A DNA stretch of 64,000 nucleotides from Aquila chrysaetos chrysaetos. Its lineage: Eukaryota; Chordata; Aves; Accipitriformes; Accipitridae. The stretch lies in the NCBI RefSeq assembly GCF_900496995.4, contig NW_024470387.1, positions 1 through 64,000 of the forward strand, given 5' to 3'. The first letter of the stretch is position 1. Each line of letters starts with the position of its first letter. Below the pieces are notes generated by a model that did no database searches, was not told where the DNA came from, and was given only the letters and a program-made list of their open reading frames with translations. The translations under genes were made by a program, and so were the position numbers. Below are positions 22,565 through 51,213 of the stretch, one piece after another.

Positions 22565-22834
22565 CCACCAGAGACCTTCAATGCGCCTGCATAAAGGACA
22601 TTTGCATATACTAATAGTTTCCCAGAAAACTAATGAATATGTATAACATTTCTCAGAAATCTAGTGAATATGTATGTAGAACCTGTACTTAACCTGCACA
22701 ATTAGACCTGACGGGGTGTGCCTTGGTAGAGCAGAGGCACCCGGTGCACCCAGCACTGTTTGCTTACCTCTATTCGTGTAATAAATCGTAAACTTTAATT
22801 AGAATCCTGTTTTTGGACATGATCATTTTTCACA
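22565..22834 (+). mobile_element. Truncated LTR, family E (3' part), copy A
   Basis: Matches 41,840-42,109, the last 270 bp of the full LTR, including AATAAA near 22,780 and the CACA end at 22,834. The 5' 447 bp are missing; the break is the left boundary of the tandem duplication. Confidence 0.85.
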
Positions 22835-25800
22835 GATGGCAAAGCCCCCCTTCCGGGCGGGGGGAAAGGTTCCCCCAGGCCCCCGGCTTGAGCAGCAGGG
22901 TGCAGCTGGGAAGGGGTGGGCAGGCTGTCCTTGGCTGTCCCCGTGCACAGGGGACCCCAGAGACCTCAGACTGCCACAGGGAGACCCCAGACTGCTTTTG
23001 CATGTGGGTGCCCATGGCTGGGTACTGTGAGTGCTTTGAAAACTCGGAGCTGATCTTTAATCCTAAATTTAGGAAGCAGGGTGGGAGCTGAAGGCGCACA
23101 GGGTCCCGGCGTGGAGCTGCTGCCATGGCACGGGGACGTACCAGGCATGAGCCAGGCCGGTCCTGCCATCGTCCTCTCCTGGCTTCCCCTCGCCAGTGCT
23201 GCTGCGGGCGTCTGGTATCCCAGGGAGGACACCCTCCAAACCCTGCAGCCCGTCCCCCCCAAACCCTTTTATCGGTACACCTCCTACGGGTGAAGCTGAT
23301 TTTTCCCCCTGCTACACCGGGAAGCAGAGCTGCAGGCACAGCCCGTGCTGCCGGAGGGGGTGTGTGCCCCGTCACGGGGCTCTTCTCCTCCCAGTTCAGT
23401 GCAGGATGGTTTGAGGTGCAACACCCAGTTTGGCACTTCCCTGCTGGGTCAGGCTGGGCCTTTTCTGGCTTGAATTTTGCCCTTAGAGGCAGCAACAGGG
23501 CACCCCCCCCCCCTGCCCCCCCCGCTTCGGCTTCATCTCTTCCCCCTCCTTCCTTTTCTCCCTGGGGAAAAGGATGGGACTGGGACAGACCTTCCCAGCA
23601 GCAGCACCCCAAGTCCCGCTTCCTGCTGGGTTTCCACCTCAAGCCTGTCCCGTTTCTCCTGGGTTTTGCTTTACCCCGGCCTGGGGCGAAGGGAGCCGCT
23701 CGCTCGGCAGGCATGCAGCCTGGGCTTCTCTGTGCACCGTGTGTCCCCAGGGGACCTGAGCGAGAAGTCAGACCTCGGAGTTAATAAATCAGCTCGAGGA
23801 ATAATCACAAGGCCGTTTCCTAAATTCCTTCTTCCCCTGCATATGCGTCTGTACAGCTCCTCGGGGACAGTCGGCGGAGCCCGCTTGTCTCTGGGAATTG
23901 CCTGTCAGCCGCGTGGTGACATCCTGAGCGGCGCTAATTGCTCGTTTAATGGGGCTGGTGGCTCCGGAGGAGAGGGACTTCTCCCCTGGTTTGACTTGGG
24001 GCTGTGGACGGATCCCGCAGGCGGTGCTCGTGAGGCAGCCCGGTCCCCCCGGGAGCTGGACGGAAAGCAGCCTCCGGTGGGATGCTCCGCTCCGCCAGCA
24101 TCAGGGGGGCCAAGGTTCCCGGTCCTGCTGAAAAAGAGGGCGCAGGCACCCCAAAACTGGGCACTGGGCTGGGGACGGGGACGGGGACGGGGACGGGACG
24201 GGATGGGCTCTCAGCTCCCCAGCCCTGCGTCTGTGGAGCCGGGCTGGCAGCACCCCCGGCTGGGGGGCAAGAGGAGGGAGCTGGATGCAGCCGGAGGGCT
24301 GCAGATGTGCCGGTCCTGCCGTAGCCCGGGGGGGGGGCTTTGCAGAGGGACCCCCAAGAGCCCCCACGGCTCCATAGGGGTCCCGGCCATCCTGCTGGGG
24401 TGCCAGGGGACAGCCCCATTTTGCCCTCCCCCTGGTTGGGTGGCACAGGGGGGCTGGAAGACCAGTTCCCCCCCTGCCGTAGGCATCCATCTGCTCGGCA
24501 TCCAGCTCCTGCCTGCTCCCTCTGCCCCCCGCTCTGCCTGCAGGCAGCGCGTCCGCGGGGTCTGCACGTCCTCGGCGTGGGACGTGCCGCGGTGCATTGG
24601 CAGGAGCAGAGCAAGGAACCCAGGAGACTCCGGGAGAGGGTCCAGCCAAATCCCTCGCTGGAGAGATGCCACAGCGAGAGGGGGACACGCAGCTGGCACA
24701 GCTGCAAAGCCCCAGTACCAACGGTGGGGATATCCCCCCCTCCCAGCCCCAAACCTGCTGCCGCTGGCGTGGCCGGCGGCACTCGCTCTCCTCCGAGGTG
24801 CCGAGAGGAGAGGCTGGTGCCGAATTCCCGAGCATCGTTACCGCCCGTGTATCTGGGAGCGTTTAAACGTGCCGACCAGGAGCATCTTCGTGCTCCTGTC
24901 GCGGCACCCACGGCCAAAACAGCCGGAATGGTCTGCAAAGCCTCGTCCTGTGTCAGTTCATCGCTGAGGACGGTTCCTGACTGAGCCCCGGGCTGAGCAC
25001 CGATTCCTGCCGCCAGTCAGGGCAGGGGACGGGGGGGCTCCCGGGGATGTGGGCAGCCAGGCTGGGGACACCCCGCTGCTGTACTGGGACACACCTCATC
25101 AGCGGGGGGGGACACAAACGCACGGGGACAGCAGCATCGCCATCGCCGGACCCCGTGCAGCACAGACCCTGGGACAGCACACGTGGTCCCGGGCTTTCCC
25201 CCGGGCACCCGTGACCCCACAGGGATGGGGAGAAAGGCCCCAGAAAGGGTGGGCAGAGAGGTTTAGTGGGAAACCTCCTGGGGACCAGAGCGGTGGGTGA
25301 CAGAGGGGACCAGCAAGAGCTGCCCTCAGTCCCTGTCGCTCTCGTACCCTCCCTTGGTGATCCGCAGATACTCGGCCCGTGCCTCAGTTTCCCCATGGGG
25401 CAGCAGGGAGCGCACGGCTCCTGCATCCCGCAGGCGGGAAGGACCGGCTTTTGGTGCCGGGGCTCCAGGGAGGAGCTGGGGCTGTCGGCACCGGTGGAGT
25501 GACCTCGCGTCCGTGGGACCCCCCCGGGGACCCCCCGAGCTGTCCCGGGTCCACCTGTGGCAGGCTGGGAGGGGGCACGTAGCCTGCTCTTGAGGCATTT
25601 CCTCGGTGCCTGCGCTCAGCGTGCAGACGGGACCCCCTGTGCCGAGCCGGGGCGATGGGGTGCTCGTGGGGGGGGGGCAGCCGTCCGAGAGAGGGTGAGG
25701 GAGGAGGAGCAGCACCGGGCAGCCCCGTGCCAGCCCCGGGCACCAGGCGGGAGCATCCCTGCTCAGAGCGGCATGAAATCGCCTCCCCAGCCCCAAACCA

Positions 25801-26830
25801 GCCCCGGCTTACAACAGCCGGGGTGGCACGGAGGCACCCCCAGGCCACGGCACCCTGCATTGGGGCGCAGGGTCCCCTGGGCAAGGAGGTGCTGCTGCTT
25901 GGCTTTGGCCTTGGGGAGCAGGGTGAGACACCTGCCCGAGGCTAGGCTGGGTTAGATTAGATGGGACTAGGTTGGATTAGATCAGATTGGAACTGGAAAC
26001 GTACCCGGTGGAAGGAAGGAAAGGACGGACAGGTGGGTGGGTGGACAGACAGACGGATGGATGGCTGAGTGCAGGGGTGCAGTGGGGTGCGGGTGATCTT
26101 CCCGGCAGAGCCCCAGAACAAGGTTTTCCCCTCCAGCTCCTCGTCAGAAAGCAGGCCGAGTCAGGCTGGACTGGCTGGGCCAGAGGTGGGTGCAGGGGAG
26201 GTTTAGGCAAAGCCCGCGGGCAGAGAGAAGCACGGGGTGACGGGTGTCCCTGGAGCATCCTCTCATGTGGCACCACCCGGTTTTGAAGGAATTGTCCACT
26301 CTTTGCCATCATTTGTTCTCTGTTTTGTGCCCTGGTTTGGGTCTGTAGCCTGGAGCGAGAGCTCCCGCCTGGAGCCTGGGCTCCTGCCTGCCGCTGCAAA
26401 GCTGATCTTGAATGCCTTGGGGGTTTTCTGCTCCCCGACGGGCAGAGGGACACTGCCCGAACAGGAGCTGTGCCCAGTCTGGGAAAAGCCCTGGGGATCT
26501 CCTGCTGACAGGAGCCGTCTCTGGCCGTAACTCCCACATCTGCCGGCAGAGCCGGAGTGTTTGGCGGGGATGCGCATGCAGGTCCTCGTGCCGGCCTCAT
26601 CCTCTTCCTGAAATGCCGTGAAATGCCGTGACTCTGCCAGGGACCTCAGAGGGAGAGGCTGCCCCTCGGTTATCCACCCGGGGCTTCTCCCTGCCTTCAA
26701 GCCTGCCTGGAGCTGCCTGCTGCCATCACCGATGGATAAGGGATGGGGACAGACTCCAGCGCGACAGTCCCCGCTCCCTGATGTTGTCATATAACGTCAC
26801 GATATCATGACGACACCTCTTGGTGTTATT
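22835..26830. other. GC-rich duplicated DNA without a supportable gene (copy A)
   Basis: Four kilobases of GC-rich unique-looking DNA repeated at 42,110-46,105. ORFs up to 496 codons exist on both strands, but none carries a recognisable domain and the same stretch is open in several frames. A GGGGAC hexamer run at 24,174-24,205 is a G-quadruplex-type motif. CCTCAGTTTCCCCATGGGG at 25,380-25,400 is a common intronic word. A short minus-strand reading ending ITKGGYESDRD and TGA at 25,326 is conserved in both copies but lacks other support. Confidence 0.4.
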
Positions 26831-26835
26831 GCAGG

Positions 26836-27237
26836 ACCTCTCTCCCATTATTTTTCAACAGTCTTGGGAGCCTGGAGAGGTCGTGGCTGGCTGGAAGCTG
26901 GCCAACGTTGTCCCGATTTTCCAGAAGAGTAAGAAGGAAGACCCTGCTAATTACAGCCTGTCGGTCTCACTTCAGTGCCCGGTAAAACGATGGAGAAAGT
27001 TATTCTGGGAGTGCTTGAAAACCACTTGAGAGACAATGCAGTCGCTGGTCAGAGCCAGCACTGCTTCACACGAGGCAAGTCCCGCTTAACCAACCTAGTT
27101 TCCTGTTACGACAAGGTCACCTATCGAGTTGACCAAAGGAAGGCAGTAGATGTGGGGTTTTGGGATTTTAGCAAAGCTTTTGATACGTCTCTCACAGTAT
27201 CCTTCTGGACAGAACGTCCAGCACCCGGCTAGACAAG
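26836..27237 (+). mobile_element. CR1 LINE reverse-transcriptase fragment, copy A
   Basis: Translation in two frames gives a typical CR1 RT central block: DLSPIIFQQSW, GWKLANVVPIF, KKEDPANY, ENHLRDNAVAGQSQH, GKSRLTNLVS and DFSKAFDT. This is the avian CR1 palm/finger region. Frameshifts (near 26,975) and loss of both ends make it dead. It is cut on the right by the LTR starting at 27,247. Confidence 0.9.
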
Positions 27238-27246
27238 TCCGTAACA

Positions 27247-27752
27247 TGTTGGTGTGGCAGTACATCCCGCCCCCCCCTCCTGCCAGCAGGAAACGAAACT
27301 TCTCCAGGAAGGGAGAAGGGGAAGGAAACCCTGGAGGCCGCGGGCTGAAATTGGAACTGGCCAGTGGAGATGCGCCAGGAACACCAAGGTGACCCTCCTA
27401 GCCGATAGGATTAAATGACCACCGGTCAGATTCGACAGGGGTGTAAACGGGGTCCCGCCGGAGGACACGTTGGAACCAGCCTTCCTGGGAGCAGCGGGTC
27501 TGCAGTCGGGGACTCCCCCTCCATCGCCCGAGGTAACTCCTCGAGGGAGAGAGCCCTCAGCTTTTAGGGGAGCGATACGCGCGTTTTGAGCCATCGCTTT
27601 CAATCTTGGGGATTCTTAAGTCGGCCGTGTCGTATTAATTCTCTTTACATCATTGAGCCGCTGGCTTTACAACATGTTACCGGACTTCTAACTAACTTTT
27701 GCTGAAGAATAAATCTGAGTTTTAACACCTGTTGGATTCAGTTAGTCGTGCA
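27247..27752 (+). mobile_element. Solo LTR, family H, inserted in CR1 (copy A)
   Basis: A 506-bp element from TGTTGGTGTGGCAG to TTAGTCGTGCA with AATAAA at about 27,709. It interrupts the CR1 fragment on its left. Nine identical bases, TCCGTAACA, flank it at 27,238-27,246 and 27,753-27,761, longer than a usual retroviral target duplication, so the exact borders are uncertain. Confidence 0.65.
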
Positions 27753-28046
27753 TCCGTAACAGGGTGTACCTGCCACATGGGGACGTGGAGGTGGACTGGG
27801 ACGTGGAGATGATGGACTGGGACGTGGAGACGGGGGTCAGACCCAGCACAGGAGCCGGAAGGCTGGGGCATCTCCAGCCCTGGAGACACGTGCTGGTCCT
27901 GCACAGGCGCACCCACGGGACACCCCCCCCCCCCCATCCCATCAGACGCGAACGCCCACCCACGGGACACGACGGCGGGGGACACGCAGCCGGCGCACAG
28001 GGAGACACACAGCCAGAACACACACAGCCCATGCCAGCATTCCAGC

Positions 28047-28052
28047 TTTATT
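28047..28052 (-). other. AATAAA polyadenylation signal, minus-strand protamine-like gene A
   Basis: Minus-strand CCAATAAAGCTGG about 217 bp after the stop codon of the ORF at 28,269-28,448. Conserved in copy B at 47,377-47,382. Confidence 0.65.
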
Positions 28053-28268
28053 GGTGGAGCCAGGGCCTCCGTAGTCCGGCAGCATGGAGTCAGGGGTGGC
28101 CGGGCTCAGCGGAGCTGCCCCCCATCCCGCCCCACACGTTGGGGGCAAGGAGGGTACGGGGGGGGCCCGGCTGTGCGAGGGGACAGCCCTGCAGCCGACC
28201 CAGCATCAAGCCAGGGCTCAGCATGGGACCCTCCACCCCGCAGCCCCCCGCCCAGTGCTGGGGTCTGC

Positions 28269-28448
28269 TCAGCAGCACCCGCTGCGTTTCCCATCCCACC
28301 ACCGCACCCTGTGCCGGCGGCGGCGTGCCGCGGGCTTGCGTCGCCTCATCCCGTACCGGCGACGAGGCCCGCGGAGGATGCGACGCGTGGTGTGGTGGCG
28401 GCGGCGCCGGCTCCTGTCGTGACCCCCGCTGTATCTGGGCCGGGCCAT
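28269..28448 (-). CDS. Protamine-like sperm nuclear basic protein (copy A)
   Basis: A 59-codon intronless ORF, too short for a usual ORF cut-off. It starts MARPRYSGGHDRSRRRRHH and ends RWWDGKRSGCC with TGA. About 40% of residues are arginine, and it has a Cys-Cys end. The MAR- start followed by Ser/Arg clusters is that of vertebrate protamines, which replace histones in sperm heads; the terminal Cys pair could form disulphides. A TATA-like box lies 70 bp upstream (28,518-28,525) and AATAAA lies 217 bp downstream. The same architecture is kept in copy B (47,602-47,781) and, decayed, at 50,440-50,587. A plus-strand Arg-rich gene lies head to head nearby. The start is the only ATG close to the TATA box. 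Seen: composition, gene signals, conservation. Inferred: protamine function. Arg-richness can arise by chance in GC-rich DNA, but the conserved signals argue against that. Confidence 0.7.
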   Translation of the reverse strand: MARPRYSGGHDRSRRRRHHTTRRILRGPRRRYGMRRRKPAARRRRHRVRWWDGKRSGCC

Positions 28449-28517
28449 GCTGGCTGACTGGGTTCGATGGCCGCCTGGCCCCGCCAGAGTGACATGGGTG
28501 CGCGCCCACCGCCCCGC

Positions 28518-28525
28518 TTTAGATA
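28518..28525 (-). promoter_or_regulatory. Degraded TATA box of minus-strand gene A
   Basis: Minus-strand TATCTAAAG at the place where the three paralogous promoters (29,741; 47,851; 50,659) have TATATAAAG. The single change probably weakens the copy-A promoter. Confidence 0.7.
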
Positions 28526-28529
28526 GGGG

Positions 28530-28645
28530 TGCCGGGTCACCGCCCCGGCGCAGGAGACGCAGGAGGAGTCCCCGGGCTGGCCGGTGGCGCAGCGCAGCGC
28601 GGCGCGGCGCAGCGGAAGAAGGCGGCGCAGGGGCAGAGGTGCTCC
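28530..28645 (+). pseudogene. Truncated exon 1 of plus-strand protamine-like gene
   Basis: Matches 30,014-30,108 (exon 1 of the plus-strand gene from about codon 7) but lacks the ATG, and it is fused directly to the TATA region of the neighbouring minus-strand gene. An indel shifts the frame after the RRRRRRRSPRAG part. Exon 2 is missing, and 42-bp repeats follow. Both duplication copies have it (47,863-47,978), so the deletion is older than the duplication. Confidence 0.7.
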
Positions 28646-29735
28646 TTTTGCACCGCTGGCGGCATGTCCCATGCCACCGCCAGCTCCTTCCCTACTGGCG
28701 GCTGCCAGTCCCATTGTCCTAGTTTCAGCTGGGATAGAGTTAACTGTCTTCCTAGTAGCTGGTACGGTGCTGTGTTTTGAGTTCAGTATGTGAAGAACGT
28801 TGATAACACTGATGTTTTCAGTTGTTCCTAAGTAGCGTTTAGACTAAGTCAAGGATTTTTCAGCTCCTCATGCCCAGCCAGCGAGAAAGCTGGAGGGGCA
28901 CAAGAAGTTGGCACAGGACACAGCCAAGGCAGCTGACCCAAACTGGCCAACGGGGTATTCCATACCATGGGACGTCGCATTTAGCATAGGAACTGGGGAG
29001 TGGGGGCGGGGAATCGCCACTCGGGGACTAGCTGCGTGCCGGTCGGAGGGTAGTGATAAATTGCACTGCGCATCATTTGTACATTCCAATCCTTTTATTG
29101 TTGCTGTTGTCATTTTATCAGTGTTATCATTATCATTATTAGTTTCTTCCTTTCTGTTCTATTAAACCGTTCTTATCTCAACCCGTGGGTTTTGCTTCTT
29201 TTCCCGATTTTCTCCCCCATCCCACTGGGTGGGGGGGAGTGAGTGAGCAGCCGTGTGCTGCTTAGTTGCTGGCTGGGGTTAAACAACGACCCCCATGCTG
29301 CTGCCGGCTCCCTGCATACTGGCGGCTTCTTATCCACGCTGCCGCTGGCTCCATCAGTACCGCTGGCAGTGTGTCCCATGCCATCGCCACCTCCTTTGCT
29401 ACAGGCGCCTGCCTGTCCCACGCCAGCACTGGCTCCTTCAGTACTGTCGGCTTCGTGTCCACGGCGCCGCCGGCTCCTTCGTTACCGGCGGGTGCAGGTC
29501 CCACGCCGCCACCGGCTCCTTCGGTAGCGGCGGCAGCAGGTCCCACGCCGCCACCGGCTCCTTCGGTACCGGCGGCAGCGGGTCCCACGCCGCCACCGAC
29601 TCCTTCGGTACCGGCGGCAGCGGGTCCCACGCCGCCACCGACTCCTTCGGTACCGGCGGCAGCGGGTCCCACGCCGCCACCGACTCCTTCGGTACCGGCG
29701 GCAGCGGGTCCCACGCCCGCCACCGACTCCACCGC
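28646..29735 (-). repeat. 42-bp minisatellite derived from a protamine-like gene (copy A)
   Basis: Tandem 42-bp units (plus strand GTCCCACGCCGCCACCGGCT then CCTTCGGTACCGGCGGCAGCGG), degenerate at 28,650-28,714 and 29,292-29,470 and nearly perfect at 29,480-29,735, interrupted by an ERVL-type LTR. On the minus strand one frame codes for a 14-residue repeat, RRYRRSRWRRGTCC or GTRC. It aligns with the 3' coding part of the decayed minus-strand gene at 50,440-50,587. Here the array abuts a TATA box (29,741-29,748) with the gene's start lost. Confidence 0.85.
28715..29291 (+). mobile_element. Solo LTR, ERVL-type, in 42-bp array (copy A)
   Basis: 577 bp beginning TGTCCTAGTTTCAGCTGGGA and ending GGCTGGGGTTAAACAACGACC, with ATTAAA at about 29,160. 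It matches, as I remember it, the widespread neoavian ERVL-type LTR. The target-site duplication is CCCAT at 28,710-28,714 and 29,292-29,296. The insertion is in the same place in copy B (48,048-48,661), so it predates the duplication. Confidence 0.9.
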
Positions 29736-29740
29736 CGCGC

Positions 29741-29748
29741 TTTATATA
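29741..29748 (-). promoter_or_regulatory. TATA box of lost minus-strand gene unit (copy A)
   Basis: Minus-strand TATATAAAGCG, same context as the other family promoters, but the start codon and first half of the gene are deleted and 42-bp repeats follow at once. Confidence 0.7.
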
Positions 29749-29782
29749 GGGGTGCCGGGGCGAGGCCCTTTGTGACACGGGC

Positions 29783-29930
29783 GCGTTGCGAGGCCAACCT
29801 CACCGGTGGCATCACAATGTCCCCACGGCGACGCCCGACCATGCGTGGCCGCGTTGCGAGGCCGCGTTGCGAGGCCAACCTCACCGGTGGCATCACAATG
29901 TCCCCACGGTGACGCCCGACCGTGCGTGGC
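29783..29930. promoter_or_regulatory. Two 81-bp repeats in the bidirectional promoter (copy A)
   Basis: A unit beginning GCGTTGCGAGGCCAACCTCA and holding CATCACAATGTCCCC and GTGCGTGGCC words occurs twice with 81-bp period between the minus-strand TATA box and the plus-strand start codon. The arrangement is kept in copy B (50,701-50,849). Its position makes it a candidate shared enhancer or promoter of the head-to-head pair. Confidence 0.6.
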
Positions 29931-29994
29931 CTCCGTGGCTGCCGGCCGGCCCCAGCCCGCAGGAGGAGGGCGGCCGCCCCGCGTCAGCACCGCC

Positions 29995-30295
29995 ATGTGC
30001 CGGCGGGTCCGCCGGTCACCGCCCCGGCACAGGAGACGCAGGAGGAGTCCCCGGGCCGGCCGGCGGCGCAGGCGGCGCAGCGGGAGGAGGCGGCGCAGGG
30101 GCAGAGGTGCTGGCTGCGGTGCCGGCGTCGATGCTGGCGGTGGCGGTGGCGCCGTCTGACCCCACGGCCGAGGGGTCCCAGCTTCTGGTCCCCCCGGCCG
30201 GGGGTGGGAGCGGTGATGGGCTCAGCATCGCTTCTCCCCCAGGTGTCGAAGCCAGGACCCTCGACTACCGCAGGAGGAAGAGGAGGGTCCTGTGA
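29995..30295 (+). CDS. Two-exon protamine-like gene (copy A)
   Basis: Exon 1 (29,995-30,106) starts in good context, CACCGCCATGTG, and reads MCRRVRRSPPRHRRRRRSPR and then more Arg/Gly/Ser. It stops at an AGAG|GTGCTG donor in phase 1. A 136-bp intron ends in CTTCTCCCCCAG. Exon 2 (30,243-30,295) reads VEARTLDYRRRKRRVL and TGA. The 54-residue product has over half arginine. ATTAAA follows at 30,392-30,397. A single short intron before a brief basic tail is the layout of mammalian PRM1 and PRM2. The gene is head to head with the minus-strand unit and shares its promoter interval with it. If unspliced, translation would run into the intron and stop at 30,157-30,159. Seen: ORF, splice sites, polyA signal. 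Inferred: sperm chromatin role. It could also be a transition-protein-like gene. Confidence 0.7.
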
Positions 30296-30391
30296 GCCTC
30301 GCCACAGCTGGGCCTGGGGGACACCCACGGGCGCCGTCGTCACCCGCGCCCGCCGTGGTCCCCCAGACTGCCCTTTAGTGACGCCTCCGTC

Positions 30392-30397
30392 ATTAAA
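30392..30397 (+). other. ATTAAA polyadenylation signal, plus-strand gene A
   Basis: CATTAAAGCCCC about 97 bp after the stop codon; same in copy B at 51,310-51,315. Confidence 0.6.
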
Positions 30398-30502: not shown

Positions 30503-30860
30503 TGACAGCATATTTCCATACATTCCGTATGGTATGTCTAAATCTGTGGATGGTTTTAGTATTTTGTACCAGCCGTGGAAACTGGTTTGCTGCCAGGTGA
30601 CTGTGAAAGTGAGATCTGGCAAATAATTATTAGGAATCTTATACTAACGCTATGACTGAAACAATAGACAAGAGTATAGCAAGCCATTAACTGGTAATTA
30701 TTCATAAGTTTTGCAGTTCTTTGCTCTTAGGACTAGGTGTTCCTGTACGCTAGACGAGAACAATGCTGAAACGGACCGCATGTGATTGACGCTGCGTTAA
30801 GCTTCCAGGTCAAGGAACAAGGACAGGAATAAGGACTTCAAGGGCAGCCGACAAGAACTT
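30503..30860 (+). mobile_element. 5' LTR fragment of ERV1 (family A), copy A
   Basis: Begins TGACAGCATATTTCCATACA and matches the first ~360 bp of the ERV1 3' LTR at 38,315-38,979, ending at ACAAGAACTT. R, U5 and the primer-binding site are missing. The five bases before it, GCAGG, resemble GCAAG after the 3' LTR, a possible target-site duplication with one mismatch. Confidence 0.75.
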
Positions 30861-31018: not shown

Positions 31019-32429
31019 TGTCACGGTCCACTCTGTGGACTCCTGATGGTACGTTTGCTACGATCTCGAAAGTGCAAAATTAAGGTGACCAACACCAAAG
31101 GGGATAGCAGTAATCACACAGTAAAACTTTATTGTATTGCCTGTGAAGAGGCACGCGATACTGTAAGAGGCTGAATTGTTATCTCGAACCGTTTGCCTCA
31201 AAGATTGTTAGGTATGAGGGACTGGGCTGTCATCAAGGAACTGTGAACTGCTCATCTTGAGCCCTTTGTCTCCAAGATGGCCGGTTTAAGCGGGACACTC
31301 CTCTGTCCATAAGGACGATTACCCGGCCATTGAGGCGTCCAGGGGAGGAAACTGGGCTGGAGCTGATAAGATATTGGTTTCTGGTATCGATCACGCGAAG
31401 GTTGTGTGATAAATGAAACCTGCAGCACATGACATCATCGAAATATGCCCTATAAAAAACCCCTAGAGACAAGTGGTGAGAGGGCCTTTTCTTCCTCACC
31501 AAAGAATTGAAGATTAAGGACCGACGGGACGCCGCTGGATCCGTGCTGGTGACCATCCTTGCAACTCCCACCACCGACTGCTTGCCTGAGGGCCGACGGG
31601 ACGCCGCTGGATCCATGGTGGTGACTATCCTTGCAACTCTATCCCGACTGCTTGCTTAATTTCTACCTTTTCTTCCATTCTATCCTATCGCTACCATTTT
31701 CCACTTTTGATACTTTTGATAATAAAAACTCTTTTGACTATACGGCATTTGACCTCGTTTGTGTCTTAATCTCGCTCTTGGGATCATATCGAAACCTTCC
31801 CCAACACTGGATCGGGACAGATACTTAGAGATGGGTGAAAGAAAGGAGAAAAGTAAAGTAAAGTTTAGAGAGAGGAGAAAGAGAGGTTATAGCTACCACC
31901 GCTGATCTCAAGGCGTCCTAACGGTCCCGGGTCCAGCTACTGCTGCGTCGTCGATCGTCGTGGTCCTTGGTGGGGAAGCTTCAAATGCCCACTGTTCAGA
32001 AGTCATCTTTTATGCCTAGTAACACACCTTGCTCCACCTCCGCCTCAGGAGTCTCCGCCCCTCTCGGAATACAATTATCATATCTCCGCCCTTCTCGAGC
32101 GAGGGTCGGTGTCCGAGGCGTGGTAAGTCTTGGAGGCGGGTAGCCTTCGACCAGGAGGTGTGCTTTGGTATTACAATGAAGCAAAGTTCGTCTAGAGTTC
32201 ACGATCTCTTCATCGATGTTACGGCAACGGTCGCAATCCATCCTTTTTGACAGTAGCTGTGCGGTTATCTCTAAGGGCTCTGGCCAGGTACCTTCCAGGA
32301 GCCTCGTACCGCACGTTCTGTCCTTGGGATCGGCCGCTGCGCTCCACACAGGCCGTTGTCAGGTAACGTGCTGTTCGTGTTCCCGATGGCAGTGTTGAGA
32401 CAATGCGGATCTTCTGACCGACTCTGACA
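31019..32429 (-). mobile_element. Solo LTR, family B, minus orientation, interrupted (copy A)
   Basis: Reverse-orientation member of the family seen at 14,382-15,147; net length about 748 bp. Flanked by GGCGG at 31,014-31,018 and 32,430-32,434, a clean 5-bp target-site duplication. It is split by the nested LTR at 31,162-31,819. Confidence 0.9.
31162..31819 (+). mobile_element. Nested solo LTR, family C (copy A only)
   Basis: A 658-bp TG...CA element (TGTAAGAGGCTGAATTG to GGATCGGGACA) with TATAAAA near 31,450 and AATAAA near 31,722. Target-site duplication GATAC at 31,157-31,161 and 31,820-31,824. Copy B has a single uninterrupted GATAC at 55,747-55,751, the empty site. Confidence 0.95.
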
Positions 32430-32434
32430 GGCGG

Positions 32435-33330
32435 GGAACGGGTGTGCGCGGGGGCGGCAAGGGAAGGGCTGCCGCCGGGGAGCGCGGCGAGCCGAGCGGA
32501 GCGGAGCGGAGCGGAGCGGAGCGGGCTGCCCTGCCCTGCGCTGCCCTGCCCTGCGCTGCCCTGCCCTGCGCTGCCCTGCCCTGCCCGGGGGTGCCCGCGG
32601 GCCGAGCCCCTCCGCCGCGGCGGGCTGCTGAGGAGAGCGGCAGCGGCGGCGGCGGGCGAAGTCGGGCGGCGGAGGGGGCGGCGGCGAGGGCGGGGGGGGG
32701 CAGCGGGCGCCCCGCCGCCCGACTTCGCCCGCCGCCGCCGCCGCCGCCGCCTCCCCGGGCGGACCCTTCGCCGCCGCCGTGGCCGTGGCCGGCCGGCGGC
32801 GGGCGGTCCGGCGGCGCGACGCGCAAAGAGTTAAGGTGCCGTCCGGGGCGGGAGGCGGTGGGAGCGCGGTGCCCCTCTCCCTCTTTGCGGACTAGTTGGA
32901 GTGACGCTGCGATCGTCTCGTTTCCCTTCGAGCTTCGCCTGCTGCCGCCGCCGCTCCAGCGCCGAGCCGGGAGCCGGGGAGCGGAGAGCGCAGGCTGAGG
33001 CTCCGCCGACTCCTGCCGAGAAATCCCCCGTCTTTATGCCGTGATCTCCCAGCCCGGCCAGGCACCGGGGGCGCGGGGTGGGGTGGGGGGGACTGCGGGC
33101 TCTCGCCAGCCCTCCCGCCGCACACCTCTTCGGGGGGCTTCCCCCCCTCCTTCCTCCGGGGCGATTTGTCGGGCTCCCCCCCTCTTCTGCCAGCAGCGCC
33201 AGCAGCACCAGCAGCGCCAGCAGCGCCAGCAGCAGCAGCACCAGCAGCACCAGCAGCACCAGCAGCAGGGCTGTCCTCCCCTCTGTGCCGCCTCCTCCTC
33301 CTCCTCGGCATCGTGTATGCACAGCAACAA
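32435..33330. other. GC-rich CAG-repeat segment inside ERV1 5' region (copy A)
   Basis: About 0.9 kb of CpG-rich DNA with GAGCGGAGCGGA and CTGCCCTGCG tandem words (32,500-32,590) and a CAGCAGCGCCAGCAGCACC-type triplet repeat (33,188-33,268). It lies where ERV1 should have R, U5 and the primer-binding site, directly before the ERV1 leader. ORFs across the triplet run read poly-Gln or poly-Leu depending on strand; I call no gene. It looks like a host CpG-island or first-exon fragment, origin unknown. Copy B has it at 56,362-57,243 with fewer triplets. Confidence 0.55.
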
Positions 33331-33539
33331 AAAATATATCCCCAGCGCAGCCCTCGAGCCGAGACTGGAGCAGCTCACCGGATCTTTTTGGTCTCGGTAC
33401 TTTGATTAAGGCTTTGGTATTTGACTATTGACTCTGGATATGACCTTTTGATCTCCGATTGATTCTGCTTGGTATTCTGACTCAGGCTCTGATATCTGAC
33501 TTCCCGATTTCTGATTTTTGTATACTGAAGGCGTTGATA

Positions 33540-34494
33540 ATGGGAGCGGGACAGTCAAGTGAACTCCCTCAAAGATCACCTCTGGGGTGTGTTTTAAAGC
33601 ACTGGAAACAGCTGGGGGGTGTTTCGGGTAGTAACATGCGGAGAGAAGGTTTGATTTAATATTGTAATCATTGGTGGCCTCCGTATAAGCTCGATGAAGG
33701 GAAAAGTGGCCTGTGAATGGGACGCTAAATTGTAACACCATGTTAGAACTGATGTTATTTTTGAGACGGGAGCAGAAACGGGATGAAGTTATGTAGTGTG
33801 ATTTGTTCTTTACCTTAAAGAAATCATCCTGAGTGACAGAAGGATTGTGGAATTAATATACCACCCAGCGATCCTTTTGTGCTATCTTCAGAAAAAGAAG
33901 GAAACAAAAAAGGTGACAACAAGCTCAAAAAGTGTTGTTCCCCATGTGGTACTGGGCAAAGATGCTTCTACTGTGGATTTAAATAACTGGAAAATAGCAG
34001 CTGGGAGCTATCGGGGAAAACCCCGATCAAACAGCCCATGCTTTTGAAACAACGATTCAGACTCAGGATCCTGATTAGAAAGAGATACGAGTAATAATGA
34101 ATGTAGTTTTTGATAGTACAAAAAGAGATATGATCCGGAGGGTTGCTAAAACCCAGGTAAAAGCACAAGTGGCTTCTGGAGTATTGCAGGGAACAGTGGA
34201 ACAAAATTTTCCATCTGCTGATCCCAAATGAGATCCTAATAACTTGGCTCAGAGCAGACTGCTGGATCAATATTAAAAATGGATTCTATTCGGAATCAGA
34301 AATGCTATGCCTAAGGCAATTCAGATTAAAAGATGCTGCTAAGAAATATACTAATATGGATCCTGAGTCTGAAGAAGGAAAAGCTCAGTTGGCTCCTTTC
34401 TTTACAGGACAAGCCTCTGATGATACCAGAAAGAAATTACAAAAAATTACAAGGAGCAGTGACGTGCGGAAACAGACTCCACAACCAGCGGGAT
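33540..34494 (+). pseudogene. ERV1 gag, 5' part (copy A)
   Basis: Gag begins at 33,540 with MGAGQSSELPQRSPLG, a myristoylation-type Met-Gly start typical of retroviral matrix. The frame then breaks repeatedly (stop at 33,657-33,659 and others). A capsid C-terminal piece, NMDPESEEGKAQLAPFF, is readable near 34,355-34,410, similar to the gammaretroviral capsid end. At 34,495 gag is interrupted by an LTR in reverse orientation. It is non-functional as retroviral structural protein. Confidence 0.8.
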
Positions 34495-34985
34495 TGTAAA
34501 GCAGGTATGTTCATTCGGCGCTGGGCAGCACGGGGGGGTAGTCCCACCAAAGTCGTGCGCGCCCGACTCGGCAGTTCGCTTCAAGTTTATACAGTCAAGT
34601 GTTACATATTCACAATACGCCTATACATATGCATGACCTGTCCCCGCTTCATATTAAAATTAGCTCCGAGAGGTCATTTCCATAGTCTCCTCTCAACTGC
34701 GCTTGCGCAGTGCCTCTTTATGGTGGTCGTCTGGTGGTCGCAGAGATGAAGACAGATGACTCCTCTTCGTCACCGCTAGTGACCTCTTTTCTTGCGCGGG
34801 CTCGGTGCTTTCTTGGCATTCACCCAGGCCGCAAGACCAGTCTTGGCTGGCTCTTGGGGCCAGCTCTTCTTATCAAGGACTGTCTCTATGTCAGCTAATT
34901 TCAACAATGTAAGCGCTAAACATCATCTTTCATCCCCCTTTATTATGTCTACCGAGATTCTTTTGACTCCCCTTGTCTCAGCAGA
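34495..34985 (-). mobile_element. LTR family D with polypurine tract inside gag (copy A)
   Basis: In minus orientation an LTR of about 438 bp (34,932 to 34,495, TGAAAGATGATG to GCTTTACA) is preceded by a polypurine tract, AATAAAGGGGGA (34,933-34,944), and about 40 bp more of internal sequence. It interrupts ERV1 gag in both duplication copies. It is the 3' end of another provirus and not a clean solo LTR. No clear target-site duplication was seen. Confidence 0.7.
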
Positions 34986-35394
34986 TTCTTGAGACTGGGG
35001 AAAATTATTAGAAGTTGCTTGGGTGGCATATAGAAATAGAGATGAATTACAGAGTAAAAATGAATGCAAGGTTAACAGCTGCTCTGGAAGTAGCAGCTGG
35101 TGTGGGACGAAGCAGAGGAGTTATTCCTCGAGGAAGGGGATGTGGTCGAAGAATGGGATGAGGGAGAGGAACTGGACTGGGGTCACCAGTGGGATTCAGC
35201 CAGCCCCTGGGCCCGAATCAGTGTGCACGCTGTAAACAAGAAGGACACTGGAAAGGGGAACGTCCCCTGAGACCCGCAAGGTCACAAGTGATCCCAATTT
35301 CGACCGCACAATCTCAGCAAGTTCCCCTTTTCTTGGGAAAGTTGAGTAAAAAGTATCTGGCAGGGACCGGAGGGGAGTCTCCCAGCAGAACCTC
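34986..35394 (+). pseudogene. ERV1 gag nucleocapsid part (copy A)
   Basis: Gag resumes after the inserted LTR. A single zinc knuckle is readable at 35,220-35,265 as CARCKQEGHWKGER: the C-x2-C-x4-H part is intact, but the fourth ligand is Arg where the family has Cys. Upstream are Arg/Gly-rich stretches as usual for nucleocapsid, broken by frameshifts. Confidence 0.75.
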
Positions 35395-35755
35395 TGGTTA
35401 CAGCTAACCTGGGAGAACAGAAAATTGAATTTGTAGTTGACACTGGAGCCACCTTTTCAGTTTTAAACACCTTAAAGGGGGAATTAAGTTCTGAAGAAAT
35501 TAGTGGTGTTGGTGCGACAGGTGAACGAGAGACCAGACCCTTTTTTAAACCTTTGACAATGAAATTAGGAAAGCAATGGGTCACTCCTCAGTTTCTGTAT
35601 TTGCCAAATCCTCCTAAACCCCTGTTAGGGAGAGACCTACTTGAGAAATTGGAAGCAGAAATTAAATTTAAAAATGGTGAGATTAAAATTCTAATTCCAG
35701 AAACTGAACATATCGAAGCAGTGGCTTTGTTGTTACAGGACGGTCACCGAAAGTA
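35395..35755 (+). pseudogene. ERV1 protease (copy A)
   Basis: Retroviral aspartic protease. The active-site DTG is at 35,439-35,447 in the context FVVDTGATFSVLN, and the conserved C-terminal LLGRDLLEKL is at about 35,624-35,655. A stop at 35,753-35,755 separates it from RT, as expected for readthrough or after decay. This section is open in copy A but frameshifted beside the DTG in copy B. Confidence 0.8.
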
Positions 35756-36518
35756 GAGGATCATACCAGTCGAAGTAAATAATGCTGTAATTCCAGTCAT
35801 CTGGGCTGGGGAAGTTCCTGGTAAATCCAAAAGAGCGGAGCCTGTGAGAATTGATTTAAAGCCAGGATCGAGTCCGGTAAGAATTCAACAATACCCCCTA
35901 AAACTGGAAAGTCGGAAGGGGTTAGTACCGATAATACAAAAATTTCTAAAGTACAAATTGTTAATAGAATGTGAATCCAAATATAATACCCCAATCTTGC
36001 CTGTTAAAAAGGCTAATGGAAAAGATTACAGGCTGGTTCAAGACCTCAGAGCAATAAATCAAATAGTACAAGATATTCATCCAGTAGTAGCAAATCCTAA
36101 TACTTTGTTAACAACCCTAACAGAGAAACAAGAATGGCTCACAGTGTTAGACTTAAAAGATGCCTTCTTCTGTGTTCCCTTGGATCCCAATAGTCAAGAG
36201 CTTTTTGCTTTTGAATGGGAAAATCCTGAGACTGGGAGAAAAACACAATATACGTGGACAGTCTTGCCTCAAGGCTTTAAGAACAGCCCTACCATTTTTG
36301 GAAATCAACTGGCACGAGAATTAGAGATTTGGAAGAAAGCAAATAATCAAGGAATCTTGTTGCAATATGTGGATGATTTATTAATTGCAGCTGAGACAGA
36401 AGAACAATGCACACAGTTAACTATTAGCCTTTTTGAACTTTTGGGGAATTGGTGGATATCGAGTGTCAAAAGAAAAAGCCCAAATAACCCAGAAAGAAGT
36501 AACTTACTTGAGTTTTGA
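35756..36518 (+). pseudogene. ERV1 reverse transcriptase (copy A)
   Basis: Reverse transcriptase polymerase domain of gammaretroviral type. LPVKKANGKDYRLVQDLRAI, TVLDLKDAFFCVPLD, TVLPQGFKNSPT and the catalytic YVDD (36,366-36,377) are in one frame from 35,844. The frame slips near 36,448, so the thumb and connection continue in another frame (EVTYLSFEILKGQ). The catalytic core is thus complete in this copy, but the enzyme is truncated. Confidence 0.85.
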
Positions 36519-37735
36519 AATCCTGAAAGGACAGAGACAATCAGGAACTGAGAGAAAGGAGGCAATTGGACGTCTCCCTGAACCTAAGACTCTAAAAGAA
36601 TTGCGAGCATTTCTGGGAAGGGTTGGGTCGTGTCACCTGTGAATTGCAAATTATAGCTTGCTGGTCCGACCTTTATACGAGCAGCTCAAAACCTCAAACA
36701 ATGGATTTATAGGTTGGACTGATGCCGGGAAAGCTGCTTTCAAACAACTAAAAAAGGCTTGAATGGAGGCACCAGCCCTAGGCCTGCCAGATCTCACAAA
36801 GACATTTGAACTCTTTACTCATGAAAGAAAAAAGTATAGCTCTGGGTGTCCCTGGTCCAATATCTGGGACCAAGTCGGCGAGCTGTGGCCTACTTCTCAA
36901 AACAATTAGACAATGTGAGTCTGGGATGGCCCGGTTGTCTGAGAGCCATCGCTGCAGCTGTGCTATTGATCCAAGAAGCTCGCGAGTTCACCCTAGGACA
37001 AAGAATTACAGTGTACATTCCCCACATGGTGATCACTGTGCTCGAACAGAAAGGGGGGCATTGGTTATCCCCTAGTAGAATGCGGAAATACCAAGTGGTG
37101 TTGTTGGAGCAAGACGATGTTTACTTAAAAACTACTATTGTTAACCCTGCTGTGTTTTTAACAACTGATCAAGTTGAAGGAGAACCAGAACGTGACCGCC
37201 TGCAGACAATTGAAGAAGTCTATTCCAGCTGCCCAGATCTCTGAGACGCACCACTGGAAGAAGCGGATTGGGGGCTATATACCGACGGAAGCAGTTTCAT
37301 CCGTGAAGGAAAACGTTTATCAGGATATGTGGTAACCACTCCTGAAAAGGTAACTGAATCACGAGCTTTGCCTTCAAATGTATCTGCCCAAAAGGCTGAA
37401 TTGATAGCTCTCACTCGAGCACTGGAACGAAGTCAAGGAAGGCGAGTCAACATTTGGACAGACTCAAAGTATGCTTTTGGAGTAGTACATACACATGGAG
37501 CAATATGGAAAAAACAGGACTGTTATCTGCACAAGGAACCACCATTCAGCATGCAGAACAAATACTGAAATTGTTAGAAGCCATTCAAAAGCCAACAGCA
37601 GTCATGATAATGCACTGTAAAACACATCAGTCAGGTAGGACTGTCCCTGAAACAGGTAACCGATTGGCTGACAGAGCTGCTAAAGAGGCTGCAGAAAAAG
37701 ACATCCTAACACTAGTTCCAGAGAAAGTGTAAATT
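36519..37735 (+). pseudogene. ERV1 connection and RNase H (copy A)
   Basis: Connection domain pieces (LRAFLGRVGSCHL, then a stop at 36,640) and an RNase H domain with YTDGSS (about 37,276), AELIALTRAL and DSKYAFGVVH (about 37,459) are readable. Frames change at least twice, and stops at 36,640 and 37,242 break it. Non-functional. Confidence 0.8.
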
Positions 37736-38314
37736 TACCTAAAGATGCTCCAAATTATAATGAAAAAGGTGAAGAATTAGTTATTAAATTGCAGACTAAT
37801 AAAAACTGAAACAGGATGGGCTGTAACACCAACAGGTCAAATAATAGTCCCACCTGCAATAATGAGAGAAATTGCCCGGGCTGAACATAACAAAGTACAC
37901 TGGGGAAGAGAAAACCTTGTTAAGCATTTACAAAAGTGTATTTTGTAAGAGGTATGACAAAAATTATTTGAATAATTACAAGTAGATGTGAAATTTGTAT
38001 ATGTAATAATTCCAAAACCAATAATAAAATCATTTTTTTAATTACTAAGCAAGGAAATTCTCCAGGAAAATATTGGCAAATCGATTTTACAGAATTGCTT
38101 CAAAATGAAGGATATTGATATATCCTAGTTCTAGTTGATAGATGTACTGGGTAGCCTGAAGCTTCCCCTTGTCGCACCAACAGAGCAAGAGAAGTAGTTA
38201 TCATCATTGTTATAATCTGTGTCGCATTTAGCTGTCTTAAACAAGCTGTGACTCAACCTATGTTCAAGTGAGACTACTAAAAGACTTAGTAGCCTCAAAC
38301 AGAAAGGGGGGAAT
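37736..38314 (+). pseudogene. ERV1 integrase remnant, fused to env tail (copy A)
   Basis: Only the zinc-binding N-terminus (EHNKVHWGRENLVKHLQ near 37,880) and the first part of the core (YWQIDFTE, VLVDRCTG) survive, with stops. After about 38,200 the sequence jumps to a short env C-terminal tail and the polypurine tract AGAAAGGGGGG (38,301-38,312). Most of integrase and env is deleted. The same deletion is present in copy B. Confidence 0.75.
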
Positions 38315-38979
38315 TGATAGCATATTTCCATACATTCTGTATGGTATGTCTAAATATTTGGATGGTTTTAATATTTTGTACCAGCCGTGGAAACTGGTTT
38401 GCTGCTAGGTGACTGTAAAAGTGAGATCTGGTAAATAATTATTAGAAATCTTACACTAACGCTATGACTGAAACAATAGACAAGAGTATAGCCAAGCAAT
38501 TAACTGGTAGAGGTAGTTACTCCTAAGTTTTGCAGTTCTTTGCTCTTAGGACTACATGTTCCTGTACGCTAGATGAGAGCAATGCTGAAACGGACCACAT
38601 GTGATTGAAGCTGCGTTAAGCTTCAAGATCAAAGAACAATGACAGGAATAAGGACTTCAAGGACAGCCGACAAGAACTTCCCATGGGTCGGTGGTCGCAA
38701 AAGCAGCCCTTCGACTCAAAGGGATCCTTCATTGCGCGTGATCGGATGTAGGCAGTACAGTACTGCGATAATCAGTTCCAATCATTTTTATGTATATGTA
38801 TCCTAATCGGACTAATAGGCAATTAGTTATTCTATATAACCTGTTTGTGCTAAAGCTGTGGCATGCACGCTAGGTGGAACCATCCCCCGCGCACCCAGCG
38901 CTGCAATAAAGAATGCCTGCTTTCTAAAACTCCAAAACGAGTCCCGGAGGGTTTCTTCTACCGGCTTTTCGGTATCACA
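38315..38979 (+). mobile_element. ERV1 3' LTR (family A), copy A
   Basis: 665 bp, TGATAGCATATTTCC to CGGTATCACA, right after the polypurine tract; AATAAA at 38,905-38,910. The following bases GCAAG may pair with GCAGG before the 5' LTR fragment. Confidence 0.9.
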
Positions 38980-39299
38980 GCAAGTGGCCTGCGGAGATGG
39001 GGGAGACAGCGGGGTGAGACGGACCCACTGAGCCTCCCTGCCCGGCCGAGCCCCCCCTCCAGCCAGGCAGCCCCTGCTGGTGACACGGCCGTCACCGCAC
39101 GCAGCGCCGGGGTGGCGTGGGCAGGATGGGACTGCGAGAGGGACACCTCCGGGGTCCACAGCTGTCCCCGCTGCCAGGGGACACGCGGTGCCTGGGGGGC
39201 ACAACGTTGGGGACGCAGCGTCCGCCGGCGCTGGGGACAGCGCCACAGCCAGCGGGTGTCCGCAGGGGCTGGTGCGGCGAGATCCCAGGCACGGCCAGC

Positions 39300-39780: not shown

Positions 39781-39815
39781 CCCCCCTCTCCCCCCAGTCC
39801 CGCCGCAGCCCTCAC

Positions 39816-39988
39816 CCAGGCAGTAGGCGCCCCGTAGGGCGGGGGGGCCGGAGCAGGGGGGGGGGGTCCCCGCGGCGGGGCCGCAGCAGGTCGCCGAGGG
39901 CCGCCGCGTCCCAGCGGTACAGCAGGTCCAGCAGCGCCAGCCCCGGCACCCGCAGCGCCACGTTGGCCACCGCCTCCAGCCGCGCCAT
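39816..39988 (-). CDS. First coding exon of unidentified gene (copy A)
   Basis: Minus-strand ATG at 39,988 in good context (CCGGCCATGGCG) opens MARLEAVANVALRVPGLALL and then DLLYRWDAAALGDLL, a Leu-rich, probably helical segment, and ends at donor CCTGG|GTGAGG (39,816/39,815). It lies at the downstream edge of a CpG island with YY1-type motifs in the matching orientation. The same exon occurs in copy B (63,648-63,817); the only length difference is three bases in a C run, which keeps the frame. I do not recognise the protein. Later exons are not visible: downstream there is a minisatellite and then ERV1. Confidence 0.6.
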
Positions 39989-46105: not shown

Positions 46106-46110
46106 GCAGG

Positions 46111-46512: not shown

Positions 46513-46521
46513 TCCGTAACA

Positions 46522-47601: not shown

Positions 47602-47781
47602 TCAGCAGCACCCGCTGCGTTTCGCATCCCACCACCGCACCCTGTGCCGGCGGCGGCGTGCCGCGGGCTTGCGTCGCCTCATCCCGTACCGGCGGCGAGG
47701 GCGGCGCAGGATGCCACGCGTGGGGCGGCGGTGGCGGCACCGCATCCTGCCGTGCCCCCCGCTGTAGCTGGGCCGGGCCAT
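47602..47781 (-). CDS. Protamine-like sperm nuclear basic protein (copy B)
   Basis: 59-codon intact ORF, paralogue of 28,269-28,448 of identical length. It begins MARPSYSGGHGRMRCRHRR and ends RWWDAKRSGCC. A canonical minus-strand TATATAAAG lies 70 bp upstream at 47,851-47,858 and AATAAA about 220 bp downstream, so this is the paralogue with the best set of expression signals. Compared with copy A it has 11 amino-acid changes, ten of them in the first 27 residues, with no indel. An extra internal Cys at residue 15 joins the Cys-Cys end. Protamine role is inferred from composition, size and gene context; the family name is not proven. Confidence 0.72.
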   Translation of the reverse strand: MARPSYSGGHGRMRCRHRRPTRGILRRPRRRYGMRRRKPAARRRRHRVRWWDAKRSGCC

Positions 47782-47858: not shown

Positions 47859-47862
47859 GGGG

Positions 47863-48666: not shown

Positions 48667-50460
48667 GGTGCCGCCGGCTCCCTGCATACCGGCGGCTTCT
48701 TATCCACACTGCCGCTGGCTCCATCAGTACCGCTGACAGTGTGTCCCATGCCATCGCCACCTCCTTTGCTACAGGCGCCTGCCTGTCCCACGCCAGCACT
48801 GGCTCCTTCAGTACTGTCGGCTTCGTGTCCACGGCGCCGCCGGCTCCTTCGTTACCGGCGGGTGCAGGTCCCACGCCGCCGCTGGCTCCTTCGGTCCCAC
48901 TGGGTGCAGATCCCACGCCGCCGCTGGCTTCCTTCGGATCCCACTGGGTGCAGATCCCACGCCGCCGCTGGCTCCTTCTGTACCTGGTAGGCAGAAGGTC
49001 CCACGCCGCTGCCGGTCCTTCGGTACCGGTGGGTGCATGTCCCACGCCACCGCCGACTCCTTCGGTACCGGCGGCAGCGGGTCCCACGCCGCCACCGTCT
49101 CCTTCAATACTGGCAGGCCAGTCAGGTCCCACGCCACCACCGGCTCCTTCGTACCGGTGGGGCAGCCCACATCGCCACCGGCTCCTTCGTAACCGGCGCA
49201 GCAGGGTCCCCCGCCACCGGCTCCTTGTAGCGGCGGCAGCAGGTCCCACGCCGCCACCGGTCCTTCGGTACGCGGGGCAGCAGGTCCCAGCCGCCACCGG
49301 CTCCTTCGTAGCGGCGGCAGCAGGTCCCACGCCACCACCGGGCTCCTTCATACTGCGGCAGCAGTCCCACGCCACCACCGGCTCCTTCGTACGCGGCAGC
49401 AGGTTCCACGCCACCACCGCTCCTTCGGTAGCGGCGGCACAGGTCCCACCCACCACCGGCTCCTTCAATCTGGCGGCAGCAGTCCCACGCCACCACCGGC
49501 TCCTTCTTGCGGCGGCAGCAGGTCCCACTCCACCACCGGCCCTTCGGTAGCGGCGGCAGCAGGTCCCACTCCGCCACCGGCTCCTTCGTAGCGGCGGCAG
49601 CAGGTCCCACGCCGCACCGGCTCCTTCGGTAGCGCGCAGTCAGTTCCCACGCCGCCACGGCTCCTCGTAGCGGCGCAGCAGGTCCCACGCCACCACCGGC
49701 TCCTTCGGTAGCGGCGCAGCAGTTCCCACGCCACCCCGCTCCTTCATACTGGCGGCAGCAGGTCCCACGCACCCAGCGCTCCTTCGGTAGCGGCGGCAGC
49801 AGGTCCCACGCCACCACGGCTCCTTCGGTAGGCGGCGCAGCAGGTCCCACGCCGCCACCGGCTCCTTCGGTACGGGCGGCAGCAGTCCACGCCGCCACCG
49901 CTCCTTCGGTAGCGGCGGCAGCAGGTCCCACGCCGCCACCGGCTCCTTCGGTAGCGGGCAGCAGGTCCCACGCCGCCACCGGCTCCTTCGGTAGCGGCGG
50001 CAGCAGGTCCCACGCCGCCACCGGCTCCTTCGGTAGCGGCGGCAGCAGGTCCCACGCCGCCACCGGCTCCTTCGGTAGCGGCGGCAGCAGGTCCCACGCC
50101 GCCACCGGCTCCTTCGGTAGCGGCGGCAGCAGGTCCCACGCCACCACAAACAAAAAAAAAAAAGCTCCCGAGAGGAGGAGAAGAAAAGAAACAAAAACCC
50201 CCCCCAAACAAAAAAAAATACCACAACAAAAGAAAAAAAAAGACAAAAAAAAAAACCCACAATAAAAGGAAACCCACCCCCCGGCTTACTTCGGTAGCGG
50301 TCGGCAGCAGGTCCCACGCCAGCCACCGTCTCTCGGTACAGGCGCAGCAGTCCCCCTCCACCACCGGCTCCTAAATACTGGCGGCAGCAGGTCCCACGCC
50401 ACCACCGGCTCCTTCGATACTGGCAGCAGCGGGTCCCACACCGCCACCGGCTCCTCCGGT
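48667..50460 (-). repeat. Expanded 42-bp minisatellite (copy B)
   Basis: About 40 units against roughly 10 in copy A, degenerate near 48,670-49,100 and nearly perfect at 49,900-50,145, with an A/C-rich break at 50,146-50,283. On the minus strand the good part reads a repeated RRYRRSRWRRGTCC. Many one-base gaps shift the frame between units, so the whole array is not one ORF. It continues into the 3' end of the decayed gene at 50,440-50,587. Confidence 0.85.
50146..50283. repeat. A/C-rich low-complexity insert in the array
   Basis: About 138 bp of poly-A runs mixed with CCCC and a GCTCCCGAGAGGAGGAGAAG core, unlike the flanking repeats and absent from copy A. It may be a simple-sequence expansion, or a consensus or assembly artefact. 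Confidence 0.7.
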
Positions 50461-50587
50461 GCCAGCGGCTGCGTGCCGCGGGTCTGCATCACCTCTTCCC
50501 GTACCAGCGGTGAGGGCGGCTGTGGATGCGACGCGTGGTGCAGCGTCAGCTCCTGCTTCGGCTCCTGCTATGCCTGGACCGGGCCAT
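50440..50587 (-). pseudogene. Decayed minus-strand protamine-like gene, source of the 42-bp repeat
   Basis: ATG at 50,587 reads MARSRHSRSRSRS and then TGA at codon 14; a second TGA follows after WYGKR. Both are consistent with CGA-to-TGA changes. Homology to the intact genes continues through the RPAARSRWHRRSRWR region, whose frame runs straight into the 42-bp repeat motif (CCQYRRSRWWRGTCC). The start resembles classical protamine N-termini more closely than the intact paralogues do. A TATA box lies 72 bp upstream (50,659-50,666). This copy shows how the minisatellite grew out of the gene's 3' coding end. Confidence 0.7.
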
Positions 50588-50912: not shown

Positions 50913-51213
50913 ACGTGCCGGCGGGTCCGCCGGTCACCGCCCCGGCACAGGAGACGCAGGAGGAGTCCCCGGGCCGGCCGGCGGCGCAGGCGGCGCAGCG
51001 GGAGGAGGCGGCGCAGGGGCAGAGGTGCCGGCTGCGGTGCCGGCGTCGATGCTGGCGGTGGCGGTGGTGCCGTCTGGCCCCACGGCCGAGGGGTCCCAGC
51101 TCCTGGTCCCCCCGGCCGGGGGTGGGAGCGGTGATGGGCTCAGCATCGCTTCTCCCCCAGGTGTCGAAGCCAGGACCCTCGACTACCGCAGGAGGAAGAG
51201 GAGGGTCCTGTGA
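50913..51213 (+). pseudogene. Two-exon protamine-like gene lacking ATG (copy B)
   Basis: Matches 29,995-30,295 at an offset of 20,918 throughout. Exon 1 (50,913-51,024), the AGAG|GTGCCG donor, the CCCCCAG acceptor and exon 2 (51,161-51,213, ending RRRKRRVL) are all kept, as is ATTAAA at 51,310. The initiator, however, is ACG within CACCGCCACGTG. Without an upstream in-frame AUG near the promoter it is probably silent at the protein level, unless ACG is used as a weak start in its strong context. All else is intact, so the loss may be recent or a consensus error. Confidence 0.65.

Follow-up and report, generated by a model that had tools for sequence, protein, structure and literature searches.

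An arginine-rich reading frame in an Aquila chrysaetos contig likely belongs to a dispersed, cysteine-terminated protamine-like family within an apparently decaying array

A 59-codon open reading frame (ORF) on the minus strand is, we think likely, one member of a protamine-like family that is single-exon, Cys-terminated and spread over several loci, with the surrounding window forming a decaying array and an apparent spliced gene on the plus strand not being conserved. The window is the whole stretch of 64,000 nucleotides that was analysed, bases 1-64000 of contig C95 (246,161 bp), in an assembly of 1.23 Gb and 144 contigs.

Results

Copies and signals of the candidate family

A reading made from the sequence alone had proposed a minus-strand, Arg/Cys-rich ORF of 59 codons with an AATAAA signal, and we found both, together with a further copy in the window:

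28269..28448, minus strand: protamine-like single-exon CDS, window copy 1, 59 aa
28047..28052, minus strand: AATAAA poly(A) signal (TTTATT on the plus strand), copy 1
28518..28525, minus strand: degraded TATA box, TATCTAAA, copy 1
47602..47781, minus strand: protamine-like CDS, window copy 2, 59 aa, with an intact TATA at 47850-47859

Searching the window's own genome with the query 28030-28525 returned 47 matches to the minus-gene region. Those on C95, C1 (first 124 kb), C93, C131 and the C8 end are array copies, whole or in fragments; the other seven are diverged copies, of which C5 holds six and C2 a single one, at 53.03 Mb. Around AATAAA, 78 bp (28030-28107) are 90-91% identical at these seven C5/C2 copies, and the coding and 5' part of the window copy is 69-76% identical to them. 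All seven carry TATATAAAG, a start, a stop and AATAAA; their frames are open over 59-63 Arg-rich codons and finish with RSRRC, and their coding sequences differ in length by whole codons. At least 13 family copies are open: the window's array (C95 and C1) has six of them, C5 another six and C2 one. In these 13 a single open exon encodes 58-63 aa with 20-30 Arg and one to three Cys, the final residue always being Cys. The minus-strand ORF is real and, judged by homology, open frames and signals, a member of a protamine-like family.

The six C5 copies form three head-to-head pairs, within which about 0.4, 1.9 and 1.9 kb separate the start codons. The most compact pair lies at C5:2630282-2631287, and the interval C5:3695083-3709559 holds two head-to-head protamine-like pairs about 12 kb apart. 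Coding sequence is identical in 2630k and 2631k, in 3695k and 3707k, and in C1:41k and C1:43k. A tree of 23 copies, from which C1:14k and shorter fragments were left out, resolved three groups, namely the C5/C2 copies, the window type and a stop-bearing type, with window-type copies about 30% diverged from C5/C2.

All galline alignment scores, expressed here as the number of shuffles reaching the observed score, rest on a provisional galline sequence. By global alignment the counts were 0/3000 for C2, 1/3000 for C5:3697k and 0/3000 for C5:2631k, and by local alignment 6/3000, 3/3000 and 8/3000, respectively; in global alignment these three thus resemble galline by more than composition. The window copy was weakly alike (78/3000 global, 76/3000 local), so its protamine kinship runs through its DNA homology to C5/C2; for C1:43k the counts were 143/3000 global and 1550/3000 local. 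The proposal of an amplified, Cys-bearing protamine-type gene on the minus strand is supported: 13 copies spread over C95, C1, C5 and C2 are open, and the C5/C2 members include galline-like ones.

Domain and database searches added little. Pfam assigned no family to four proteins (the window proteins and the C2 protein), including no match to Protamine_P1 (PF00260), and none to 100 of 189 filtered ORFs taken from five C5/C2 loci for synteny. A whole-genome search with the Protamine_P1 profile gave 0 matches and says little, as controls likewise returned 0 genomes. Protein database searches gave 1 and 25 candidates, none scored and nothing of use, and a search of viral contigs yielded nothing relevant.

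Probable decay of the local array

Large tandem segmental duplications of 96-97% identity join 22565-29730 to 41840-49102 and 31820-40170 to 55747-64000, and the protamine part of the tandem duplication is present in more copies, reaching C95:74k. A repeat of about 360 bp and 90-91% identity (30503-30860, 38315-38679, 51421-51766 and 62222-62585) lies just beyond the ATTAAA of the plus-strand reading described below and recurs near the distal end of each duplicated segment. ORFs in 1-41840 include retroviral pieces (reverse transcriptase, RNase H, protease and Gag p30), and a stretch near the C8 end (L010 about 8000-8400) is presumably retroviral integrase-like. At about 8480-8730 on the minus strand lies what we take to be one histone H2A.Z exon; a Pfam scan of 122 window ORFs gave one Histone and one Histone_H2A_C match, which probably correspond to this ORF.

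Ten window-type copies were counted, shorter fragments such as C1:17k, 121k and 123k being left out. Six are open (C95:28k, 47k and 71k; C1:41k, 43k and 54k) and four are frame-shifted (C1:4k, C93:4k, C131:21k and C131:42.7k). A second, diverged type occurs at seven places, with a stop at codon 14 in six and a frame shift in the seventh; its representative in the window is as follows:

50426..50587, minus strand: diverged protamine-like pseudogene, stop at codon 14, continuing into minisatellite units; TATA at 50658-50667

Some of the frame shifts could stem from errors in assembling repeats, since small indels are numerous in C1:14k.

The minus ORF had also been credited with a TATA box, which copy 1 does not bear out: the position reads TATCTAAA there and in the 71k copy, as against TATATAAA in the 47k, C1:54k, C1:43k, C1:41k, C5 and C2 copies. 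In addition, the block found upstream of the TATA at C2 and C5 is missing from all five open array copies aligned, the 71k copy not being among them, and is kept at all four stop-bearing loci aligned (C95:50k, C95:74k, C8 and C131:9k). Window copy 1 therefore looks compromised in both respects. With the upstream block lost, and with TATCTAAA in the 28k and 71k copies, expression of the window copies is probably weak or absent, and the functional members are more likely those on C5 and C2.

The strongest competing account accepts the family and takes the open array copies to be active protamine genes driven from a new and shorter promoter. The fact that six of ten copies have stayed open despite 30% divergence from C5/C2 speaks for it, as does the retention of TATATAAA in four of them; nevertheless, the deletion of the upstream block in every open copy aligned and the altered TATA in two make this account doubtful, if a real possibility.

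The interval and the plus-strand reading

The two ORFs had been read as sharing a bidirectional promoter. Between them, however, lie a truncated exon-1 duplicate, a solo LTR and a 42-bp minisatellite, which does not fit a shared promoter:

28535..28643, plus strand: truncated duplicate of the exon-1 stretch, adjoining the TATA box, with the remaining upstream block deleted
28715..29290, no strand assigned: solo LTR with CCCAT on each side; about 30 more genome copies among the matches listed
29334..29730, minus strand: 42-bp minisatellite, about 9.5 units, the minus strand reading TRCRRYRRSRWRRG
29740..29749, minus strand: orphan TATA box (CTATATAAAG), with no protamine CDS after it in copy 1
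29750..29994, no strand assigned: upstream block common to the C2 and C5 protamine loci, with two 81-bp units in copy 1
29995..30295, plus strand: plus-strand reading, exon 1 29995-30106, intron 30107-30242, exon 2 30243-30295
30392..30397, plus strand: ATTAAA, 3' of the plus-strand reading
48670..50142, minus strand: expanded 42-bp minisatellite, about 36 units, frames broken
50913..50915, plus strand: ACG where the plus-strand ATG would stand in copy 2, from the alignment

The minisatellite appears to have grown from protamine 3' codons, because its unit matches the 3' ends of family coding sequences and the stop-bearing copies lead directly into it. The score of the unit against the 3' end of the C2 CDS was reached by 1/500 codon-order shuffles, with 4/500 for C5:2631k, 2/500 for C1:43k and 26/500 for the window copy. 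The bare unit is not galline-like, 1248/2000 local and 793/2000 global shuffles reaching its score. A giant protamine built of minisatellite units was also considered and rejected, given the mixed frames and stops and a pseudogene entering the repeat that is broken at all seven places.

A spliced plus-strand reading does exist as proposed, with an ATG at 29995, a GT at 30107, an AG before 30243, a 54-aa product and ATTAAA at 30392. Both reading frames had been described as conserved in the second copy; this holds for the minus ORF (59 aa, 47602-47781) and fails for the plus reading, whose start there is ACG. The donor, which had been called clean, reads GAG|GTGCTG and scores -0.5 with a matrix of approximate frequencies, ranking sixth of the 33 GTs in 29731-30300. 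The acceptor has 75% pyrimidines and is kept among copies.

Across eight aligned copies the plus start reads ATG in four, ACG in two (C95:50k and C8) and TTG in one (C95:74k), and is changed in one (C1:14k). Among the four ATG copies, the frame of one carries a 1-bp insertion and that of another has lost 4 bp, which leaves start and frame together in two of eight. Further relics of the plus reading, for example at C1:54k, are without the start region. At C2 the upstream block could be followed with CACGTG and a 4-bp insertion that shifts the frame, after which the sequences diverge; the start region is absent on C5, where at 2630k the remainder of the plus-reading sequence lies in the short gap that separates two protamine-like genes. 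The C2 and C5 stretches compared contain no match to exon 2. A longer frame from an upstream ATG (MSPRRR...) was set aside: it lies in the shared upstream block, the window ORF stops at 29912, and C5 has an 8-bp gap.

We regard it as improbable that the window holds two functional head-to-head genes for sperm basic proteins with a shared promoter, the plus one being spliced and protamine- or transition-protein-like. Apart from the spliced reading itself, two things speak for such a pair: the acceptor, exon 2, stop and ATTAAA are kept with few changes in C95:50k, C8, C131:8k and C1:54k, and the plus peptide is somewhat like the provisional galline sequence (5/2000 shuffles global, 55/2000 local). 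Weighing more heavily against it are the loss of start or frame in most aligned copies, the ACG and 4-bp shift at C2, the lack of the start region on C5, the unmatched exon 2 in the stretches compared, and the weak donor. Nor does the plus candidate display the conserved start, frame and splice sites of a mammalian-type spliced protamine or TNP gene. The supposed spliced partner sits in the family's upstream non-coding block, lacks a conserved start and frame, and is probably not a conserved gene but upstream DNA of the family that happens to read as Arg.

Chance, constraint and the minus-strand ORF

An ATG ORF of 50-75 aa with at least 35% Arg arose in 0/2000 dinucleotide shuffles of 28201-28720 and in 0/60 shuffles of the whole window. 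The window itself contains three such ORFs, at 28269-28448, at 47602-47781 and in the unspliced plus reading, and the presence of the last means that this test cannot separate the minus from the plus gene. Pairwise dN/dS was 0.98-1.48 between array and C5/C2 copies, 0.59-1.77 among array copies, and 2.2-2.9 between C5 and C2, the last from only 2 synonymous and 11-14 non-synonymous changes. This pattern is one of fast change; it is no proof of selection, and the values near 1 are no proof of coding. Simulated under a simple neutral model with 0.17 changes per site, the C2 frame stayed intact in 893/3000 runs without indels and in 219/3000 with indels.

That the minus ORF is no gene at all, and only GC-rich DNA with repeats whose Arg reading is accidental and which was duplicated along with its flanks, is highly improbable: other reading frames there are open too, four of ten window-type copies are frame-shifted and dN/dS is near 1, but no shuffle produced such an ORF and all seven C5/C2 copies agree in having a start, a stop, a TATA box and a poly(A) signal, and their differences in length are whole codons.

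Discussion

Homology, open frames and signals argue for the family membership of the minus ORF, with the best preserved members being those on C2 and in the three head-to-head pairs on C5. By analogy with known protamines, a TATA-driven spermatid transcript would yield an Arg-rich peptide of 59-63 aa, which is predicted to replace histones and condense sperm DNA, and the terminal Cys could form cross-links. The window would then be part of a rearranged local array with decaying copies, in which copies that retain the upstream block are broken by stops or frame shifts; the block is missing from the open copies aligned. The plus 'gene' would consist of the upstream block joined to array-specific DNA.

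That plus exon 1 corresponds to upstream DNA at C2 and C5 counts for this explanation, as do the 47 genome matches, the open copies with their shared signals, the galline likeness of the C2 and two C5 members, and the neutral simulation. Counting against it are the absence of a Pfam match, dN/dS near 1, the frame shifts in four of ten copies and the reliance on a provisional galline sequence, as well as the weak galline likeness of the window copy and the lack of any for C1:43k.

On a broader level, we give roughly even weight to the view that this is an expanded, dispersed, fast-changing, Cys-bearing protamine family, partly arranged as head-to-head inverted pairs on one chromosome and with some members identical, beside an array that spins off new variants from its broken copies and from a 42-bp coding minisatellite of protamine origin with up to about 36 units. 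If true, this would overturn the idea that birds have one protamine without Cys, and would point to sperm competition or chromosome drive. With a family spread over several contigs, ending in Cys and including inverted pairs, it would become possible to test in birds how copy number and disulfide bonding evolve in sperm chromatin. The correction has its own value, as the attractive spliced partner makes most sense as DNA from upstream of protamine-family genes.

Among the titles listed from a library that covers few subscription journals, none concerned a bird protamine gene family. The accessible portions of PMC8812575, PMC11607694 and PMC12216123 are silent on bird protamine genes, and one listed title (PMC6702581) has serum protamine 1 in chickens as its subject.

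Comparison with known systems

The family resembles galline in its length of about 60 aa, its richness in Arg and its apparently intronless structure, and also in an M-x-R-x-R-R-S-R start and, at C2 and C5, an RRRR[YF]GSRRR motif. In contrast, the family here ends in Cys, and galline is not known to contain any. Mammalian PRM1/PRM2 and TNP1 encode small, Arg-rich, Cys-bearing products and in this are alike; unlike them, with one intron per gene, the family described here has a single exon and no Protamine_P1 match. For birds, the accessible part of PMC7126135 describes two identical protamine gene copies; here at least 13 copies, spread over several contigs, are open, and with pseudogenes counted the family falls into three groups. 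Finally, Drosophila has amplified sperm nuclear basic protein genes, and although those proteins are unrelated to the present ones as far as is known, the accessible parts of PMC9917458 and PMC10120018 point to the same kind of multi-copy, fast-changing sperm packaging genes.
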